Below, in pieces: positions 11,874-43,689 of a DNA stretch of 64,000 nt. The position numbers were made by a program, and so were the translations under genes. A model generated the notes under the pieces. It saw only the letters and a list, made by a program, of their open reading frames with translations. It was not told the origin of the DNA and made no database searches. Positions within the stretch are counted from its first letter, which is position 1. Each line of letters begins with the position of its first letter. The stretch spans positions 2,480,001 to 2,544,000 of the forward strand of contig NZ_CP069535.1 in NCBI RefSeq assembly GCF_016889805.1, in the 5' to 3' direction. Origin of the DNA: Rhodanobacter sp. FDAARGOS 1247 (GTDB taxonomy: Bacteria > Pseudomonadota > Gammaproteobacteria > Xanthomonadales > Rhodanobacteraceae).

Positions 11874-12743
11874 TCAGCCCCGACCGATGCCATCCAGTTC
11901 GGCCATCACCTCATCGCCCAGCCGCAGCCCGGCCGCCGCCAGGTTCTCCTGCAGATGGACGACCGACGACGTGCCGGGAATCAGCAGGACGTTGGGCGAC
12001 CGGGCCAGCAGCCACGCCAGCGCCACCTGCATCGGCGTGGCCTCCAGCCGTGCCGCCACCTCGGACAGCGTCCGCGACTGCAGCGGGCTGAAGCCGCCCA
12101 GCGGAAAGAACGGCACGTAGGCCACACCCTGACGGGCGAGCGCGTCGATGAAGTCGTCGTCGTCGCGATGCGCCAGGTTGTACTGGTTCTGCACGCAGAC
12201 CACCGGCGCGATGCGCTGCGCTTCGGCGACCTGGCTGGCGGTGGCATTGCTGAGGCCGAGGTGGCGGATCAGCCCCTGCTGGCGCAATTCCGCCAGCGCA
12301 CTGAACTGCGCTTCGATGCTGCCTTCGCTGGGCGCGTGCACGTCACCCATCACGCGCAGGTTGACCGCATCCAGCACATCCAGGCCGAGGTTGCGCAGGT
12401 TGTCGTGCACTGCCCGCACCAGTTCGGCTGGACTCTGCGCCGGACGCCAGGACGCATCGTCGCCGCGCAGCGCGCCGACCTTGGTCACGATCACCAGCTC
12501 GTCGGCATACGGGTGCAGCGCCTCGCGGATGATCCGGTTGGTGACGTGCGGTCCGTAGAAGTCGCTGGTGTCGATGTGATTGACGCCGGCCTCCACCGCG
12601 GCGCGCAGCACCGCCAGCGCCGCCGCGTGATCCTTCGGTGGGCCGAACACGCCCTTCCCTGCCAGCTGCATGGCGCCGTAACCCATGCGGTTGACCGTGC
12701 GGTCGCCGAGCGAAAACGTGCCTGCCTGTGCGAGCTTGCTCAT
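11874..12743 (-). CDS. Aldo/keto reductase, YdbC-like
   Basis: A 289-residue TIM-barrel NADPH-dependent oxidoreductase. Catalytic-tetrad positions visible are Asp in NHIDTSDFYGP, Tyr in the same segment, and Lys in IVTKVGA. The usual catalytic His in the LxLH strand is replaced: the strand reads DVLDAVNLRVMG. NADPH-phosphate contacts are in LIPGTSS near the C-terminus. The same substitution occurs in the YdbC subgroup (pyridoxal/aldehyde reductases), so activity is still plausible. It is divergent from a LysR-type gene that probably controls it, with 103 bp between the two starts. Confidence 0.87.
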   Translation of the reverse strand: MSKLAQAGTFSLGDRTVNRMGYGAMQLAGKGVFGPPKDHAAALAVLRAAVEAGVNHIDTSDFYGPHVTNRIIREALHPYADELVIVTKVGALRGDDASWRPAQSPAELVRAVHDNLRNLGLDVLDAVNLRVMGDVHAPSEGSIEAQFSALAELRQQGLIRHLGLSNATASQVAEAQRIAPVVCVQNQYNLAHRDDDDFIDALARQGVAYVPFFPLGGFSPLQSRTLSEVAARLEATPMQVALAWLLARSPNVLLIPGTSSVVHLQENLAAAGLRLGDEVMAELDGIGRG

Positions 12744-12846
12744 GATGTTTCTCCGGGGAGGATGAAGGGACGGGATGAACTATAGGAAGGCCACGCCCTC
12801 CTGATAATCCGCCACAATCCATACGGGTCGTGCGGAGAACGGGACA

Positions 12847-13743
12847 ATGGCGACAGAGCTGCAGGATCTCCAGGCGTTCCTCGCCGTGCTGCGAGCCGGC
12901 GGGTTTCGGCAGGCAGCGCGCAGCGGCGGCGACTCCGCCTCCAAGTTGAGCGAGGCAGTGCGTCGGCTGGAGAGCCGACTCGGTTTGCGCCTGCTCCATC
13001 GCACCACACGCAACGTCTCGCCCACCGAAGCCGGCGCGCGACTGGCCGAGCGGCTCGCGCCCGCCCTGGCCGAAGTGGAAGCGTCGCTGGACGTGGTCAA
13101 CCACTTCCGCGACCGCCCCGCCGGCACGCTGCGAATCAACGTGCCGGCGAACGTGGCGCGCACGGTATTGCCCGGCATCGTCACGCCCTTCCTCAAGCGC
13201 TACCCCGAGATCCGGCTGGAAGTGATCGTGGAAGACAGCTTCGTCGACCTGATGGCCAGCGGCTGCGATGCCGGCATCCGCTACGACGAGCGGCTGGCGC
13301 AGGACATGATCGCGCTGCCGATCGGCCCGCGCACGCAACGCCTGGTCACCGCCGCCGCGCCCGCTTACCTGCAAGCCCACGGCACGCCCGAACACCCGCG
13401 CGACCTGCTGCAACACGCCTGCCTGCGCGGCCAGTTTTCCGGTGGCGCCGTACCGCTGTGGGAGTTCGAGCGCGACGGCGAAATCGTGCGCGTCGACCCG
13501 TCCGGTCCGCTGCAGGTACGCACGGGCGCGGCCTTCGATCTGGCCGTGCAGGCCGCGCTCGACGGACTCGGCATCGTCCACCTGTTCGAGGATTGGCTGC
13601 AGCCGCATCTGGACAGCGGTGCACTGGTGCCGGTGCTGGAACCGTGGTGCCAGCGCTTCAGCGGGCCGTTGCTGTATTACGCAGGGCGGCGTCATTTGCC
13701 GTCGCCGCTAAGAGCGTTCGTCGACTTCATCCGGGAAGCCTGA
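12847..13743 (+). CDS. LysR-family transcriptional regulator
   Basis: A 298-residue LysR-type regulator. Residues 1-60 form the winged HTH (ELQDLQAFLAVLRAGGFRQAARSGGDSASKLSEAVRRLESRLGLRLLHRTTRNVSPTEAGARL), followed by a linker helix and the periplasmic-binding-like effector domain starting at GTLRINVPANVARTVLPGIVTPFLKRYPEI. It is transcribed away from the aldo/keto reductase, the usual arrangement for a LysR regulator and its target. Effector unknown. A small membrane-protein gene follows 31 bp downstream on the same strand. Confidence 0.9.
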   Translation: MATELQDLQAFLAVLRAGGFRQAARSGGDSASKLSEAVRRLESRLGLRLLHRTTRNVSPTEAGARLAERLAPALAEVEASLDVVNHFRDRPAGTLRINVPANVARTVLPGIVTPFLKRYPEIRLEVIVEDSFVDLMASGCDAGIRYDERLAQDMIALPIGPRTQRLVTAAAPAYLQAHGTPEHPRDLLQHACLRGQFSGGAVPLWEFERDGEIVRVDPSGPLQVRTGAAFDLAVQAALDGLGIVHLFEDWLQPHLDSGALVPVLEPWCQRFSGPLLYYAGRRHLPSPLRAFVDFIREA

Positions 13744-13774
13744 CGCGCATCACCCCACTCAAACCCGAGAGCCC

Positions 13775-14062
13775 ATGAGCAAGATCGGCACCGCCCTCTG
13801 CCTCACCTACCTGCTGGCCATCCTCGTCTGCCTGGGATTTGCCCTGACCGCCCACGGCGACCCCAAGGGTCAATTCGTCTTCGCGCAAATCCCGATCGCC
13901 CTGCAAGGCAGCCTCGCGGCTGGGCTGGGATTCGGTCCGGCGCTGGCCAGACTGTCGTGGCCGGAGGCTTATCTGTATCTGGCCGGGCCCACGTTCGTGT
14001 TGCTCTATGCCTTTGGTTGGTTGCTCACGCTAGTCCGGAAGCGCCTCTCAACCCGGCGTTGA
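13775..14062 (+). CDS. Small integral membrane protein, unknown
   Basis: A 95-residue protein with an N-terminal hydrophobic helix (about 5-25), a polar stretch (THGDPKGQFVF), and further helices around 38-55 and 62-88, ending in a basic tail RKRLSTRR. GAGAG lies upstream of the ATG. No family recognised. It could be co-transcribed with the LysR gene. The 119 bp that follow hold no recognisable gene and lead into a region of lower GC. Confidence 0.6.
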   Translation: MSKIGTALCLTYLLAILVCLGFALTAHGDPKGQFVFAQIPIALQGSLAAGLGFGPALARLSWPEAYLYLAGPTFVLLYAFGWLLTLVRKRLSTRR

Positions 14063-14181
14063 GACGAGGGTCCCGCTTCACCTGCACGTGGCAATGCAAA
14101 CCTCATTACGAAAAACGCACCCCACGTTCCGTTTTGCCCTAACCTGGCCGCACATCAAATGGGCATGGCGGGAGCCGAGGC

Positions 14182-15036
14182 ATGGCAACGGGTGAAGACT
14201 GGTCGCGATTGGAGGTAGAGAGTTGTGTAGCCGACTACCTGCATATGCTCGCACTTGAACTCAACGGGCAGCAGTTCAACAAGTCCAATCGCATCCACGA
14301 GTTAGTGCAGCGGCTGGATGGCAGAAGCAAATCATCCGTTGAATACAAGTTTCGTAACATCAGCGCGGTCATGAATGAACTTGGCTGGCCAACGGTCACG
14401 GGTTACAAAAGCTTGGCGAACTACCAACTATTGCTGATGGAAGTGGTGGAATCCCAGCTTCAGAGCAATATCGCCCTGCAGGAAGCAGTACAAGCTGCCG
14501 TCGAACGTCCCGCGACTGTCGCGTCCATTGAAAACCCGACAGCCATCTGGGTTCCCATACCAAAAGCGGCAACCCAAGTAAGGGAATCGCCCGCAGGCTA
14601 CGCGGCTCGCTTTTCTCCGGCCAAACGTGACTATCTGGCGCAAGAAGCACGCAATCGTTCATTGGGTCTCGCCGGCGAGCAGTTCGTGATGGAACTTGAA
14701 GCCCGGCGTCTATACGCAGCCGGCATGAAGTCGCTGAGCGAACGCGTCGAACACGTCTCAGCCACGCAGGGTGACGGCCTCGGCTACGACGTACTGTCCT
14801 TTGAGGAAAACGGTCGTGAGCGGTTGATCGAGGTAAAGACCACGTCTTTCGGCGAACTGACACCCTTCTTCGTCAGCCGAAACGAACTGGCACGTTCGGA
14901 GACCGATGCAGAATCCTATCGGCTGTATCGCCTTTTCGACTTCCGCGAGCGCCCCCGCCTCTTCGACCTGCCTGGCGCCATCGCCGTACATTGCCAACTA
15001 GACCCGGTGTCCTATCTAGCGCAGCTGACCAGCTAG
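14182..15036 (+). CDS. DUF3883 domain protein with PD-(D/E)xK-like nuclease fold
   Basis: A 284-residue protein in two parts. Residues about 1-140 are helical and include SNRIHELVQRLDGRSKSSVEYKFRNISAVMNELGWP, a segment found as the N-terminal module of HNH and other mobile-element or restriction-linked proteins. Residues about 165-284 form DUF3883, containing SLGLAGEQFVMELEARRL, then GYDVLSFEENGRERLIEVKTTSFGE. The GYD...EVKTT arrangement fits the D...ExK core of PD-(D/E)xK nucleases. The gene is less GC-rich and has different codon use from its neighbours, and sits beside repeats and a gene remnant. A role in DNA defence or restriction is inferred, not shown. Confidence 0.75.
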   Translation: MATGEDWSRLEVESCVADYLHMLALELNGQQFNKSNRIHELVQRLDGRSKSSVEYKFRNISAVMNELGWPTVTGYKSLANYQLLLMEVVESQLQSNIALQEAVQAAVERPATVASIENPTAIWVPIPKAATQVRESPAGYAARFSPAKRDYLAQEARNRSLGLAGEQFVMELEARRLYAAGMKSLSERVEHVSATQGDGLGYDVLSFEENGRERLIEVKTTSFGELTPFFVSRNELARSETDAESYRLYRLFDFRERPRLFDLPGAIAVHCQLDPVSYLAQLTS

Positions 15037-15165
15037 TCGCGGGCAAAGCATCAACAGTGCACCAGGCCCCTTGTTTGCCTGAGTCTTGCGACGCATTGGG
15101 CTACCGACTCCAGCGAAATGCAAACCTAGAGCGCGTTTAACTTCCTTCGTTCCAGCCCCACCGCG

Positions 15166-15480
15166 GCACGCCGAGCTGGCAAATCCGAAGGGCAAAGAAA
15201 GAACTCGAACTTCGGCGTTACTTGTTCGGAGCGCCGAGAACAAAGCTCAATCGGTAGAGAAAACAACTCGGCGGTTCGAGAAAATAGCCCGGCACACCGA
15301 GCACTTGAATTCGACGCGTCGAGCAAAAAGCTCGGGACACGGAGCTATTTGCCCGGGCTGCGGAGGAAAAAGCTCGACCGACCGAACGGGCGAACTCGAC
15401 GCACCGAGTAAAAAGCTCGGGCTGCGGAGTTATTTGCTTGGGCCGCGGAGAAGAAAGCCCGGCGTGCCGAGAAGGATGCC
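15166..15480. repeat. Tandem array of degenerate 21-bp palindromic repeats
   Basis: About 14 units can be read by eye. The common pattern is a 14-bp inverted repeat CTCGG-N4-CCGAG followed by a 7-bp A/T-rich spacer (for example AAAAAG-, TTATTTG or AAAATAG-type). Most units are exactly 21 bp; at least two are 22 bp. Well-preserved units lie at 15318-15480. Flanking DNA from 15037 to 15165 holds no recognisable gene. Read on the minus strand the unit is seven codons and would give heptads such as LFSRTAE and LFSLPIE, but the 22-bp units change frame and no long frame crosses the array. It could be a binding-site array, a structured element, or a decayed heptad-repeat gene. Confidence 0.75.
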
Positions 15481-15493
15481 GACCAGCAATGGT

Positions 15494-16147
15494 TCATTCC
15501 TCATGTGCAGCTTCGATCAGGAGCGCCTCATAGGCATCCCAGCGCGTACTCAGCCCCACCAGCCACCACGAGAGAAGATAGGCCAGAAAAAGCGCCCACA
15601 GCAGCAGGCCGCCAACCACATGTACCTGCGCTAGTGCCTGCCAATCGCCAAAGCGCCAGTCCTTGAGCTGCAGGTAGAGAATCGCCAATAGCGGCAAGAT
15701 GCCTAAGCGGTTCACACTGCCTGTGAAGAGCCCCATCCGATAGGAAAGGGACGACTTTCGTGCGCTCAAGTAGCGAAGTCGACGCGCCAGCTCGGCCCTT
15801 GGGAAATGCCTCATATCAGCCACCAGTATTCGCCACTGGTCATAGTCCCGATCCAGCTCGCGAGATAACTTGTCGTGCCTGCGGTGGAACGTCCGCCACT
15901 CACGTTGGACAAAACAATACACGCCGACTCCCAGCACGACCAGCAAGATCACAGTGCATGCACCAAGGGCAAACGCCGCAGTCCGAGACTTCGCAAATTG
16001 GGTTGCAACCAGCAATGGTAGCCACGACACCATCGTCGTTCCCAACGCCAAACGCTCCACCAAGCCCGGCTTGTCATCCCTGACGTCCTTGGCGTACTGA
16101 TCGATCTCTTTTTCAATCAGTGCATACGTAAGTGATTCGTTCGTCAT
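15494..16147 (-). CDS. Four-helix membrane protein of unknown function
   Basis: A 217-residue protein starting MTNESLTYALIEKEIDQYAKDVRDDKPG. Two hydrophobic helices lie around 38-80 (SWLPLLVATQF, FALGACTVILLVVLGVGVYCFV), then a charged helical region (about 82-135), then two more helices around 145-165 and 175-200. The layout, two hairpin helix pairs with a cytoplasmic charged middle, is reminiscent of SLATT-type effectors but the similarity is not strong enough to assign. In-frame ATGs at 16180 and 16183 would extend it by 11-12 residues. It sits in the accessory patch, ending just beside the 21-bp repeat array. Unknown function. Confidence 0.6.
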   Translation of the reverse strand: MTNESLTYALIEKEIDQYAKDVRDDKPGLVERLALGTTMVSWLPLLVATQFAKSRTAAFALGACTVILLVVLGVGVYCFVQREWRTFHRRHDKLSRELDRDYDQWRILVADMRHFPRAELARRLRYLSARKSSLSYRMGLFTGSVNRLGILPLLAILYLQLKDWRFGDWQALAQVHVVGGLLLWALFLAYLLSWWLVGLSTRWDAYEALLIEAAHEE

Positions 16148-16191
16148 ATGCGTCCCTGCAGGAAATTTCGGCGATCCCATCATGGCGCAAC

Positions 16192-16404
16192 GTCCGGTAC
16201 ACCGCGAGAGCAGATCACGCTACTCCCTGTATCGACTTTATTCAGTTGGCCGATCTTTTCATTGGCAGCCTCAACCGCCACCTCAATCACGACCCTGATC
16301 GCACGAGTGACAAGCCTAAGGACCGATTCGCTCGTGCCTTTCTTGAAAGGTTTGGCACCCAAAGCGATCAGATCGAGGACATGGTTATCGTTGATCGCTT
16401 GTAA
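16192..16404 (+). pseudogene. Remnant resembling the C-terminus of a DUF3800 protein
   Basis: The plus-strand frame contains CIDFIQLADLFIGSLNRHL followed by a charged helix and a short ending MVIVDRL. The IQLADL..G...R segment is characteristic of the C-terminal end of DUF3800 proteins, which often occur in mobile and defence regions. The expected N-terminal two thirds, with its RNase H-like acidic residues, is absent; upstream sequence belongs to the start of the minus-strand membrane-protein gene. A minus-strand frame of 88 codons (16180-16446) covers the same DNA but looks less protein-like. Similarity judged by eye, so moderate confidence. Confidence 0.35.
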
Positions 16405-16807
16405 GCACCCGGGCGGCAATAGCGAACGGAGATAGTTCTTCGACACTGCGTTGCGAGTCGGGATGGCCCGCCACCGCTCTACCCGGGGCCACTGTGCGGC
16501 GGGGAGTCGGGGCGACAGGCCGCGTAGCGAGAGTCAACAGGATGTCGGCTCCTGCCAGAGTTGAAGCAACGCAGGAGCGGTTACCCGATGCCTGCCGAAG
16601 GCGGACGAAAACTTCTCGCCATGAACAGCAGAGGCGAGTGCGGTCCCGGCCTTCGCCGGGATGACGATCCGGGAAGTGGCGCGATCTCTGCATTCTCCGG
16701 AATGACGATGAGGAAAGATAGAACGATCCCGGCTCTCGCCGGGATCACAGCCAAGTATGAAAGGCCGCCGGAGCTAACTGAATCGCTACGGCTAGTGTCC
16801 TATCAGC
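16405..16807. other. Intergenic region without a supported gene
   Basis: About 400 bp between the DUF3800-like remnant and the S41 peptidase gene. Both strands have short open frames, but their translations are the arginine- and proline-rich kind produced by reading through REP sequence. Apart from the REP copies at 16641-16748 nothing is recognised. Confidence 0.6.
16641..16748. repeat. REP-like repeats, two full copies and one degenerate
   Basis: TCCCGGC-CTTC-GCCGGGA at 16644-16661 and TCCCGGC-TCTC-GCCGGGA at 16727-16744, in the same orientation, each followed by TGA/TCAC-type sequence. Between them, 16688-16706 is a degraded copy (TTCTCCGGAATGAC). This palindrome with the trailing GATGAC is a common extragenic repeat of high-GC gammaproteobacteria. 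Confidence 0.7.
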
Positions 16808-17896
16808 TCACTCCAACTCCCCCAACCGCTCCTTCAACCTCCGCCGCCAATCCTCATCCTTCTCCCCCGCGATCAACGCCTTCAGCGCGGCCACCTGCGC
16901 GAGGTCCAGCGCCTTCTTCGCCGAAGAATGGACGTCCGGCACCACACCAACATTTTCCCAGTCGGTGTGCGTGACCGGGCTGATCGGGCGTCCGGAGGGA
17001 ACGAACATCATGAAGTGCGCAGCCAGCCGGTGTGGTCCGCCGCCATGAGCGCCGCCGCCGGTGGTTTCGCCGATCAGGGTGGCGCGCTGGTTGTTCTTCA
17101 GCGCATAGGCGAAATCCTCGCAGCCGGAGAACGTGTCGCTGCTGGTGAGCAGGTAGACCTTGCGCGACTGGCCATAGCGGGGGCCGGGAACGGTGGCCGT
17201 GGTCCAGCGCTGCTCGGTGCGGTTTTCGTCGCGCCAGTAGACGTCGTTGAGATGGGTCGGCTTGTCGTACAGGTAGCTGGCAAACAGCATCACGCTTTCC
17301 GGATCGCCGCCGCCGCAGTGGCGCAGGTCGATGATCAGGGCACCGGTGTCGCTCATCAGGGTCATGGCGGCGGCGATGCGCGTGGCGACCATCGCCGGCC
17401 GGCCGAACTGATGCAGGTCGATGTAGCCGATGTCGCCCTGCAGGCGATCGACGCCGTTGATGCCGAAGTTGAAATGCTTGCCTTCGGCCAGCTCGGCGGC
17501 CTTGTTCTCGGCGGAGTCGGACTGGTCGTCGCCCTGGGCGATCGCGTGTTCGAAGTAACGCACCTCAAGGTGCTTGTCGTTGCTGTCGTGTTGCAGTGTC
17601 TCGGTCAACTTGTCGGCGAGCTTGTCGGCGCTGGTGATAGCATCAAAGTCGCCGTGCTGCAGCTGGGCGCGCAGGCTCTTCCCCATCGCGGCGGCCTTGT
17701 CCGGAAAGACGTAGGACTGATTCAGGTTGGCGATGATGCTTTCCACCACCTCGCTGCGCATGGCCTTGTCGACCGTCATGTCTTTCTGTGGCGGCCCGGA
17801 CTGCGCGTGGCCGGGCATGCCGAACAGCACCAGCCCGGCTCCGGTCAGTGCGACGGCGCCGGCCAGCGCGGCGATCCGTTTCATCTTCTTGCTCAT
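16808..17896 (-). CDS. Exported S41-family (C-terminal processing-type) peptidase
   Basis: A 362-residue protein with a signal peptide (cleavage near GHAQ, about 32). The family core is visible: IIDLRHCGGGDPESVMLFASYL near 195, the nucleophile region LLTSSDTFSGCEDFAYALKN near 255 with the catalytic Ser in TFSG, and GETTGGGAHGGGPHRL near 285. The N-terminal part (about 45-120) is a helical S41 cap as in interphotoreceptor-retinoid-binding-like members; no PDZ domain is seen. It probably cleaves unfolded or tail-exposed proteins in the periplasm. The C-terminal residues EKDEDWRRRLKERLGELE are charged. It is followed in the reverse direction by REP sequence and stands as its own unit. Confidence 0.85.
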   Translation of the reverse strand: MSKKMKRIAALAGAVALTGAGLVLFGMPGHAQSGPPQKDMTVDKAMRSEVVESIIANLNQSYVFPDKAAAMGKSLRAQLQHGDFDAITSADKLADKLTETLQHDSNDKHLEVRYFEHAIAQGDDQSDSAENKAAELAEGKHFNFGINGVDRLQGDIGYIDLHQFGRPAMVATRIAAAMTLMSDTGALIIDLRHCGGGDPESVMLFASYLYDKPTHLNDVYWRDENRTEQRWTTATVPGPRYGQSRKVYLLTSSDTFSGCEDFAYALKNNQRATLIGETTGGGAHGGGPHRLAAHFMMFVPSGRPISPVTHTDWENVGVVPDVHSSAKKALDLAQVAALKALIAGEKDEDWRRRLKERLGELE

Positions 17897-17980
17897 CTCT
17901 GCATTCCTCGTCAGGTTCGTCGGTGATCGACGGGCGCAGGGTGGCGAAGGAATGTGGAGGGATTATGGAAGCGGCTCGGA

Positions 17981-18130
17981 GCCTGTGAAGAAAACCACTT
18001 CCTGTGGTTTTCTTCCATCGCACGTCCGGTACACGCCCGGACGTACTCACGCGAATCAGTCACTTGCGTGACTGCTCCGCGCCCGGCAATCCATGGCCGG
18101 CCTGAGAGGTTGAAAAATCACAACCTCTCA
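17981..18130. repeat. 150-bp multi-hairpin dispersed element, copy A
   Basis: Nearly the same sequence occurs at 59151-59301. On the plus strand it holds five inverted repeats in order: GAAGAAAACCAC-N5-GTGGTTTTCTTC (17987-18015); ACGTCCGG-N6-CCGGACGT; CAGTCAC-TTGC-GTGACTG inside a short outer pair; CCGGC-N8-GCCGG; and GAGAGGTTG-N8-CAACCTCTC. The last hairpin overlaps the TGA stop of the response-regulator gene on the minus strand, so the element forms its 3' flank. It contains no coding potential. Differences from copy B include a compensatory A-T to G-C swap in the second stem. Confidence 0.85.
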
Positions 18131-32617: not shown

Positions 32618-33034
32618 ATGATGAAATATCGCAAACCACTGTTGACCGCCCTTGCCGCCTCGGCCCTGATGCTGGCGGGCCAGGTGATCGCCCAGGACAC
32701 GACGCCCCAAGACACGACACCTCAGAGCACGACTCCCCAAGACACGACAACCCAAGGCACGATGCCCCAGGACACCGCGCCCATGCCCGCCGACCAGACC
32801 ACCGCCACCATGAATACGCCGAGCGGCGAGCTGACCGTGCATTCGAGCATGCCGACGCCGCCACCGGCCGGGCCGGCGCCCTCGTTCGAGCAGTTGTCCG
32901 ACGGCGCCCGCTACATCACCGAGGATCAGGCCTCAGCCTATCCCCTGCTGGCCAACGACTTCATCTACGCCGACCACAACCGCAACGGCCGCATCAGCAA
33001 GGACGAGTACCAGCGCTGGACGGCGCAGAAATAA
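32618..33034 (+). CDS. Exported protein with PQDTT repeats and an EF-hand
   Basis: A 138-residue exported protein. Signal peptide MMKYRKPLLTALAASALMLAGQVIAQ is followed by a five-residue repeat tract (QDTTP, QDTTP, QSTTP, QDTTT, QGTMP, QDTAP; about 27-55) and then a single C-terminal EF-hand loop DHNRNGRISKDE with ligands at positions 1, 3, 5, 9 and 12. Similar small EF-hand proteins are frequent in this order. GGAG precedes the two consecutive ATGs (32618, 32621). The DNA of the tract is a 15-bp tandem repeat, so its length may vary between strains. Role unknown; calcium binding inferred. Confidence 0.78.
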   Translation: MMKYRKPLLTALAASALMLAGQVIAQDTTPQDTTPQSTTPQDTTTQGTMPQDTAPMPADQTTATMNTPSGELTVHSSMPTPPPAGPAPSFEQLSDGARYITEDQASAYPLLANDFIYADHNRNGRISKDEYQRWTAQK

Positions 33035-42879: not shown

Positions 42880-43689
42880 TCAGCTGTTGCCGCGCTTGGC
42901 CTGCTCGCCACGTTGCGGTGCCAGCACGCGGCCATCGGAACCCTCGATCTCACCGGTTGCCGAAGGATGCAGCTCGGCATGACCGCCTCCCGGCTGGGCC
43001 GGGTTGGCATCCGGCCAGGTCGGTCCCTGACGCACCCGCTCGTTCTTCGCCTCCAGCAAGGCCTGGATCTTCGCCACGGCGTCTTCCTGGCTGATGTGCT
43101 CGATCGGCGCTTCCATCGGCGGCTTGCGGGTGGCGGCCGGCTTCCGCGGCGTGGCCGTCCGAACGGGAGACACGGCCGCGGGTTTCTTCGCGATCGGTTT
43201 CTTCGCGGCAGGTTTCCTGGCCATCGGCGCGGGGGCAGCGGCTCGCTTCGCGACCGGCTTCCGGGCCACGGATTTCGCGCTCGCCGGCTTGCGGGCGGCC
43301 GCCTTCTTCGCGACGGGCCTTTTTGAAACCGCCTTCTTCACCGCGACTTTCCTGACCGGGGCCTTCTTCACCGCAGATTTTTTGGCCGGCGCCTTTTTCG
43401 CCACGGGCTTCTTGGCCGCCACCTTCCTGGCTGCGGGTTTCTTCACCGCCGCCTTCTTCGCGGCCGGAACCTTCTTCGTCACCGCCTTCCTGACCGCCGA
43501 CTTCCCGGCAACCGTCTTCTTCGCGACGGCCTTTTTAGTCACGCCGGTCTTCTTGCCGGGAGCTTTCTTCGCTGCGACCTTGCTGGCTGCCGCCTTGCGC
43601 GGAGCTGCCTTGGTGGAGGCGGCGGGTTTGCGGGAAACCGACTTCTTTGCCGCGGACTTCTTGGCAACCAACTTTCTGGACGTGGCCAT
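42880..43689 (-). CDS. Histone H1-like Lys/Ala/Pro-rich protein
   Basis: A 269-residue basic protein. Residues about 1-195 are a run of irregular AAKKP/KKAVA-type repeats (such as KKSAAKKSVSRKPAA, KKAPAKKSAVKKAPVRK) typical of eukaryotic H1 tails and bacterial AlgP/PhaF/Hc1-like DNA-binding tails. Residues about 200-269 are a different, non-repetitive part containing HISQEDAVAKIQALLEAKNERVRQGPTWPD, which may be a small folded or oligomerising module. It probably binds the nucleoid. The repeat DNA is prone to length variation. Convergent with the rhomboid gene upstream? No: both are on the minus strand, 92 bp apart. Confidence 0.78.
   Translation of the reverse strand: MATSRKLVAKKSAAKKSVSRKPAASTKAAPRKAAASKVAAKKAPGKKTGVTKKAVAKKTVAGKSAVRKAVTKKVPAAKKAAVKKPAARKVAAKKPVAKKAPAKKSAVKKAPVRKVAVKKAVSKRPVAKKAAARKPASAKSVARKPVAKRAAAPAPMARKPAAKKPIAKKPAAVSPVRTATPRKPAATRKPPMEAPIEHISQEDAVAKIQALLEAKNERVRQGPTWPDANPAQPGGGHAELHPSATGEIEGSDGRVLAPQRGEQAKRGNS

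Follow-up and report, generated by a model that had tools for sequence, protein, structure and literature searches.

A tandem array of palindromic DNA units was identified in the window, a stretch of 64,000 nucleotides from Rhodanobacter sp. FDAARGOS 1247. Together with a small helical protein that is encoded near related arrays in other bacteria, this array points to an unknown genetic system of two parts, of which the present genome lacks the protein. The protein, about 160 amino acids long and uncharacterised, is referred to by the working name AAP, which was coined here. The window array is genuine and lies far above chance expectation. It was found among the following features of the window:

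12847..13743, plus strand: gene which we take to encode a LysR-type regulator (named from sequence likeness)
14182..15036, plus strand: 284-aa protein with a NOV_C domain (PF13020, Pfam, E 1.7e-20), presumably the family formerly called DUF3883
15162..15471, minus strand (the strand with T-rich spacers): array of 15 units CTCGG-N4-CCGAG with spacers of 6-8 nt (chain finder, shuffles, covariance model)
15302..15309, minus strand: 8-nt spacer ttcaagtg of the window array, giving the second 22-bp step
15387..15394, minus strand: 8-nt spacer ttcgcccg of the window array, giving a 22-bp step
15494..16183, minus strand: gene of a 229-aa protein, the stop codon of which abuts the array (neighbour comparison)
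16808..17896, minus strand: gene presumably encoding an S41-type peptidase-like protein (orthologue near array L013)

The 15 near-palindromic units detected by the chain finder cover about 310 bp. The original prediction of a palindromic array was correct in kind, while its estimate of about 14 units at 15166-15480 had to be revised to 15 units at 15162-15471. Units of the form CTCGG-N4-CCGAG with a T-rich spacer are called type A in the following. The dyad-symmetric type-A unit and a period of 21 bp are both present in the window array, where successive steps are 21, 21, 21, 22, 21, 21, 21, 22, 21, 21, 21, 21, 20 and 22 bp (10 of 21 bp, three of 22 bp and one of 20 bp). Two 22-bp units had been claimed before; such units do exist, but there are three of these steps in addition to the 20-bp step. 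The spacers are mostly 7 nt in length, with four exceptions of 6 or 8 nt, and are T-rich on the minus strand (52 A against 18 T counted on the plus strand). The chain score was 61.5, whereas Markov shuffles scored no higher than 8 for the 64-kb window (20 shuffles) and no higher than 8.5 for the array alone (500 shuffles). The self-match of the array was 0.42 at lag 21 and 0.23-0.28 at lags 19, 20, 22 and 23. Matches of the covariance model were located on the minus strand at 15245-15302, 15330-15387 and 15415-15472. CRISPR arrays consist of near-identical direct repeats with unique spacers of a length similar to that of the repeat. This identity was rejected for the present arrays, in which the repeats are degenerate and the spacers 6-9 nt long.

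Arrays of Rhodanobacter (e.g. L009, L010, L017, L022 and L024; loci are numbered with L, genomes with G) are of near-uniform length, often with 15 units and 309-310 bp. In Rhodanobacter arrays with at least two 8-nt spacers, these spacers are mostly 4-6 units apart, and those that recur have similar sequences.

The distribution of such arrays was determined by BLAST and by a three-unit covariance model, which served as the detector. Strong BLAST matches of the window array (E 1e-10 or better) were obtained in three out of 40 relatives. The covariance model identified arrays in 9 of 45 genomes of the genus, the own genome included (E 1e-3), in 11 of 197 genomes and 5 of 26 genera of the family (E 1e-4) and in 5 of 200 genomes of the order, including a second family (E 1e-5). 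The relatives comprise Rhodanobacter sp. Soil772 (G022), R. glycinis S10 (G021), R. panaciterrae (G014), Rhodanobacter sp. DHG33 (G170) and Pseudoxanthomonas daejeonensis (G025). An exact two-unit pattern was found in 41 stretches over named genomes of Rhodanobacter, Stenotrophomonas, Lysobacter, another Lysobacteraceae genome, Pseudoxanthomonas, Ralstonia, an Ectothiorhodospiraceae MAG, Cyanobacteria, a Chloroflexaceae MAG and Hymenobacter. All 41 stretches sit within chains of 3 to 24 units, and the covariance model matched at E 1e-6 in each of the 19 exact-pattern genomes tested with it.

For the window's own genome, the covariance model yielded one array. A period scan of 1,264,000 of its 3,922,638 bases returned no second segment that was judged to be an array; on inspection by eye, the remaining segments at lag 21 resembled coding sequence. 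With 10 segments at lag 21, compared to 21, 11, 8 and 9 at lags 12, 15, 18 and 33, lag 21 is no commoner in these bases than other multiples of three.

The genes adjoining other arrays are often unrelated, and one small gene, that of AAP, recurred beside them; in Rhodanobacter sp. Soil772 it is located at L010:4466-4948. The AAP protein search, which was blind to the arrays, resulted in 29 loci in 16 of the 45 Rhodanobacter genomes. A period scan (12-63) over all fetched loci, a total of 808,777 bases chosen for arrays or AAP, placed lag 21 far ahead: 70 segments were found at lag 21, 44 at lag 42 and 9 at lag 63, with at most 6 at each of the other lags from 12 to 62. Most of the new lag-21 matches adjoin AAP and have unit sequences other than type A, for example CTCATCGATGAG plus spacer at L107 and L108, TGGCTCTCNGAGAGCCA at L128 and GAGGTTCGGAACCTC at L124.

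An AAP locus was scored as carrying an array at a z of at least 4 and a match of at least 0.38 within 700 bp. For loci picked by protein only, this was the case at 43 of the 56 distinct AAP places (46 of 59 rows, where L133, L134 and L158 repeat L109, L113 and L130); at the other 13 places no array was detected under this rule. The matches include L116, where the periodic stretch includes the start of the gene itself. The misses include L123, where the start of a like array is cut by masked bases, and L131, where the gene was misplaced by the script and periodic sequence does adjoin it. Gene calls made by script in high-GC sequence are rough, and the loci were partly chosen for arrays. An array was present in 23 of the 29 rows from the genus-wide AAP search of 45 genomes and in 23 of the 30 rows taken from genomes in which type-A arrays had been found before, and beside AAP at seven of nine cyanobacterial, two of two Hymenobacter and two of three Ralstonia loci. 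The array is on the 3′ side of the gene in 32 of the 46 rows and on the 5′ side in the other 14. Among the controls, none of the 114 random blocks and none of the 56 genes taken from the window away from its array scored, nor did any of 16 loci of other proteins. For distant controls, blocks of cyanobacterial, Hymenobacter and Ralstonia loci away from type-A arrays, the rate was 4 of 102; two of these four share locus L073 and one lies within about 1 kb of another 21-bp segment in L044. The linkage between AAP and the arrays is strong and replicated, and extends across phyla. A divergent AAP subgroup (L118, L119, L124-L127 and L129-L132), 27-30% identical to the first, has its own array types at the 3′ end of the gene beside most of its members.

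According to the family profile, AAP or a piece of it is present in 25 of 30 array-bearing genomes (in G053 as a fragment only), including cyanobacteria, Ralstonia and Hymenobacter. The profile found no AAP in the window's genome, G060, G150 and two MAGs. In the whole own genome no AAP was detected at E 1e-3, and the sole tblastn match within 12001-18000 of the window is at chance level (E 0.63) and about 2.3 kb away from the array. Since there is no AAP within 700 bp and none in its own genome, the window array is called an orphan. Across the 45 Rhodanobacter genomes the association between AAP and type A is borderline (6 of 16 compared to 3 of 29, p 0.05). Solitary type-A arrays outnumber those beside AAP in several genomes; for Ralstonia soli, one type-A site beside AAP and seven solitary ones were found among the eight sites listed. 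Arrays of genomes lacking AAP are not more decayed (p 0.64), which argues against a maintenance of the arrays by AAP.

The sequence of AAP gave no match above cut-off in Pfam (eight AAPs; best sub-threshold E 0.084), NCBIfam (five), PADLOC (three) or PHROGs (six), and a PDB sequence search returned nothing below E 0.08. The dN/dS ratio ranges between 0.10 and 0.20 in all seven pairs, hence AAP is under purifying selection. The protein is slightly acidic (e.g. 15 K+R and 18 D+E). Its conserved motif is L-x4-R...L-x-[KR]-[ML]-G-x-K-S-x2-F together with an invariant Tyr, the S being replaced by T in Hymenobacter. Two AlphaFold models (pLDDT 82 and 80, pTM 0.56 and 0.57) contain helices only, one of which is 53-55 residues long. 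A break resembling a helix-turn-helix is predicted in one of the models only, between helices 37-42 and 48-63, where the Hymenobacter model has a single putative helix 37-63 without such a break. Fold searches with the first model gave nothing significant.

The comparison of unit types covered 54 of the 59 loci, excluding L104, L116 and the three repeats; 38 unit profiles were kept, among them that of L161, which fails the array rule. In 29 of the 38 profiles the unit is more palindromic than its column permutations (10 or fewer of 200); the other nine are not clearly palindromic. Paralogues of AAP were found to carry different, mostly palindromic units with the same 21-bp period. The similarity of the units tracks the identity of the AAPs (Mantel r 0.50, 0 of 2000 permutations, 38 loci) and rises from 0.36 below 30% identity to 0.87 above 85%, where part of this correlation may reflect mere physical linkage. 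Below 60% AAP identity, r is only 0.22. Type A accompanies AAPs of Rhodanobacter, Lysobacter, Ralstonia, Leptolyngbya and Hymenobacter, and those from Hymenobacter, Ralstonia and Lysobacter are only 26-53% identical to those of Rhodanobacter. The specificity is therefore not tightly tied to the AAP sequence, and given also the low r, the unit type is no simple readout of overall protein likeness.

The neighbours of the window array were compared with those of its relatives. An orthologue of the lysR gene (84.6% identity) flanks array L013 in G014, with an S41 orthologue (76%) about 4.3 kb from that array, and at L009 in G022 a 67-aa fragment matches lysR. The gene of the 229-aa protein, a putative orphan membrane protein according to the original prediction and without a match in Pfam or NCBIfam, has an orthologue (79% identical) abutting type-A array L009 in G022. 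A further orthologue (79%) adjoins a 21-bp array of another unit type in G052 (L095), and beside a third (70%, L096 in G058) no array was found. The association of this neighbour with arrays noted in the window is thus repeated at L009 and L095 but not at L096. At this gene, type A occurs in two species and another 21-bp unit in G052, so that the period outlives the letters in one case. The degenerate array behind the G052 orthologue is located at L095:2250-2620. Judging from the lysR and S41 orthologues near the G014 array and the 229-aa gene at the G022 array, the place of the window array is old.

Distant homologues of the 229-aa protein (28% identity) are encoded near an AAP gene at L108 (G049) and L107 (G057), about 300 bp and about 1.6 kb away. 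The 229-aa protein may therefore belong to the array system after all; at the other five of the seven places of distant homologues, neither AAP nor an array was found. The DUF3883 (NOV_C) gene, which had been considered as the partner of the array, was absent from all 33 loci searched for it (L009-L041) and looks incidental.

Several known systems share features with the arrays. Iterons of plasmids and phages and centromere-like parS/parC clusters are tandem sites about two helical turns apart, which are read by an adjacently encoded protein. The present arrays have the same spacing and an adjacent protein gene, and would presumably be read by a protein as well. In contrast to these systems they are chromosomal, often several per genome, and composed of palindromic units; AAP has no recognised replication or partition domain, and two arrays were not found in the plasmid collection. 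REP elements are short dispersed extragenic palindromes of several phyla including Cyanobacteria, and those of the GTAG type are linked to a dedicated protein gene, the RAYT transposase, in REPtrons, as described in PMC3733652. The present arrays resemble them in these respects, but are tandem at a fixed 21-bp period, and AAP has no transposase match in the Pfam and NCBIfam scans. The unpaired tag at the palindrome end that marks REPs of the GTAG or CGTC kind is near-absent (GTAG or CTAC in 6 and CGTC or GACG in 7 of 639 spacers, the spacers only being searched), and by this mark the arrays fall outside the class. Heptamer GGGAATC repeats, which are associated with G-quadruplexes, are likewise intergenic and occur in Xanthomonas and Nostoc, taxa that overlap with those of the present arrays (PMC4692102). 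They differ in their 7-nt G-rich unit, and no partner protein is mentioned in the available part of that report.

Binding of AAP, or of a partner, to the array is considered the likeliest mechanism, to which we give about an even chance. The window array would then be an orphan of a family that spans several phyla and consists of tandem arrays, helically phased and mostly palindromic, with the putatively all-helical AAP, encoded within a few hundred bases, as their usual partner. The arrays would most likely serve as multi-site DNA platforms for AAP dimers, or for a partner of AAP, with all sites facing one side of the helix. The AAP gene and its array were presumably copied together, after which the unit sequence would have diversified while the 21-bp period and mostly also the dyad symmetry were retained. 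At several sites, arrays appear to have persisted with the AAP gene truncated, as beside one array of DHG33, or absent, as in the window's genome. Binding by AAP, dimerisation and the purpose are inferred; candidate purposes are local silencing, nucleoid organisation, segregation or self-maintenance. The prediction of a helically phased, apparently non-coding palindromic array of an unknown system is supported. The broader claim is tentative, though a serious possibility: that AAP and array form a previously unrecognised two-part system, present in Proteobacteria, Cyanobacteria and Bacteroidota at least. In this system a single family of helical proteins would work through arrays that keep the 21-bp phasing and mostly the dyad symmetry, with letters free to vary and paralogues having their own array types. 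If true, this would be a device for nucleoprotein addressing, silencing or self-propagation of an undescribed kind. If AAP reads the arrays, a protein family that the searched libraries leave unannotated could be tested, along with its DNA targets, in harmless culturable bacteria, a class of unexplained intergenic tandem repeats would gain a cause, and there would be a case of selection keeping helical phasing more than sequence.

Ranking next after binding by AAP, although unlikely, is a selfish or mobile repeat in which AAP and array behave like a REPtron, AAP or a host enzyme copies the arrays, and solitary arrays are non-autonomous remains. The array lies at two or more separate places in at least 13 of the 19 exact-pattern genomes (among the matches listed), with mixed neighbours and a patchy distribution, as would be expected for such an element. 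In Rhodanobacter sp. DHG33, the array and a 120-aa gene, once with AAP, are found in several copies that are 84-90% alike; four of the five copies of the 120-aa gene (L022-L026) have an array at a distance of about 40 bp, while for the fifth the distance is about 1.1 kb. In one copy of the array region, AAP is reduced to its last 37 aa, which share 95% identity with the intact protein. However, no transposase or nuclease family was recognised in AAP (other array neighbours were scanned in part), no ends or target duplications are defined, neither AAP nor the exact array pattern was found in viral contigs, and blastn of two arrays against the plasmid collection, with the low-complexity filter on, gave no match. 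Arrays are also kept at the same place in several species, so that movement would be slow at best. A neutral origin, in which slippage and gene conversion make 21-bp arrays that arose next to AAP and travelled along with it, is rather improbable. Super-repeats of 42, 84 and about 127 bp suggest block duplication, the units differ between paralogues, and arrays persist in genomes without AAP in no more decayed form. Such a process does not readily account for the period, and mostly the dyad symmetry, recurring with unrelated units beside AAP in distant phyla, nor for the arms being more conserved than the loops, as seen in 10 of 11 comparisons between related arrays (exception L011-L012; the comparisons are not independent).

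A transcribed array could also act as a row of RNA hairpins (terminator, 3′ protection of an mRNA or RNA decoy), and the unit could indeed fold into a stem of 5 bp that is U-rich on its 3′ side; a position directly 3′ of a gene, on the T-rich strand, is seen for several arrays (e.g. L009, L010, L017 and L038). The orientation to genes varies, however (L011, L013), and the window has no Rfam match above the gathering score. The Watson-Crick pairing of the arms in 695 units of 56 arrays was 0.87, 0.65, 0.77, 0.70 and 0.55 for the five pairs, which is close to the 0.87, 0.61, 0.77, 0.71 and 0.55 expected for independent columns, the largest excess being 0.65 compared to 0.61. Changes between related arrays are mostly one-sided, breaking or making pairs, and G-U and A-C mismatches on the T-rich strand are about equal in number. 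As the arms do not covary, selection for an RNA hairpin is not supported, and this explanation is improbable. A common degenerate half-site (CYCSR and its complement) is nevertheless retained in both arms, and a separate reading of the two half-sites on duplex DNA would fit these sequences better than a selected RNA stem; the independent variation of the arms would fit a reading by a dimer. A gene for a heptad-repeat protein, intact or decayed, is very improbable. It is suggested by the 21 bp, equal to seven codons, and by frequent stop-free frames: of the 56 arrays, 50 have one on the T-rich strand and 44 on the A-rich strand. In the window array, plus frame 2 is stop-free over all 102 codons, but the minus-strand heptad frame predicted earlier is interrupted by stops, as no minus frame is open throughout. 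Over all arrays the period of 21 bp is kept (589 of 639 steps, the others being 45 of 22 bp, 4 of 20 bp and one of 23 bp), whereas the reading frame is not: at least one step other than 21 bp, altering the heptads read, is present in 26 of 56 arrays. Among orthologous arrays the open strand differs, being the A-rich one alone in the window array but the T-rich one alone in L009 and L013, so that we read the stop-free frames as a by-product of a unit lacking stop codons in several frames rather than as coding. The variation is moreover symmetric about the dyad and not codon-like. Unrelated neighbours combined with open heptad frames had been named as the mark of a decayed repeat-protein gene or a generic repeat, and by the letter this combination was largely found, with neighbours often unrelated and the T-rich strand mostly free of stops.

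In the open-access literature, 21-bp palindromic arrays linked to a protein were not found; we do not claim that the arrays are undescribed. The 120-aa protein of DHG33 has no Pfam match, and its homologues form multi-copy families elsewhere in the family, with up to 14 matches per genome. Further tandem repeats with periods of 15/30 bp are located in the window at 32691-32775 and 43294-43461.
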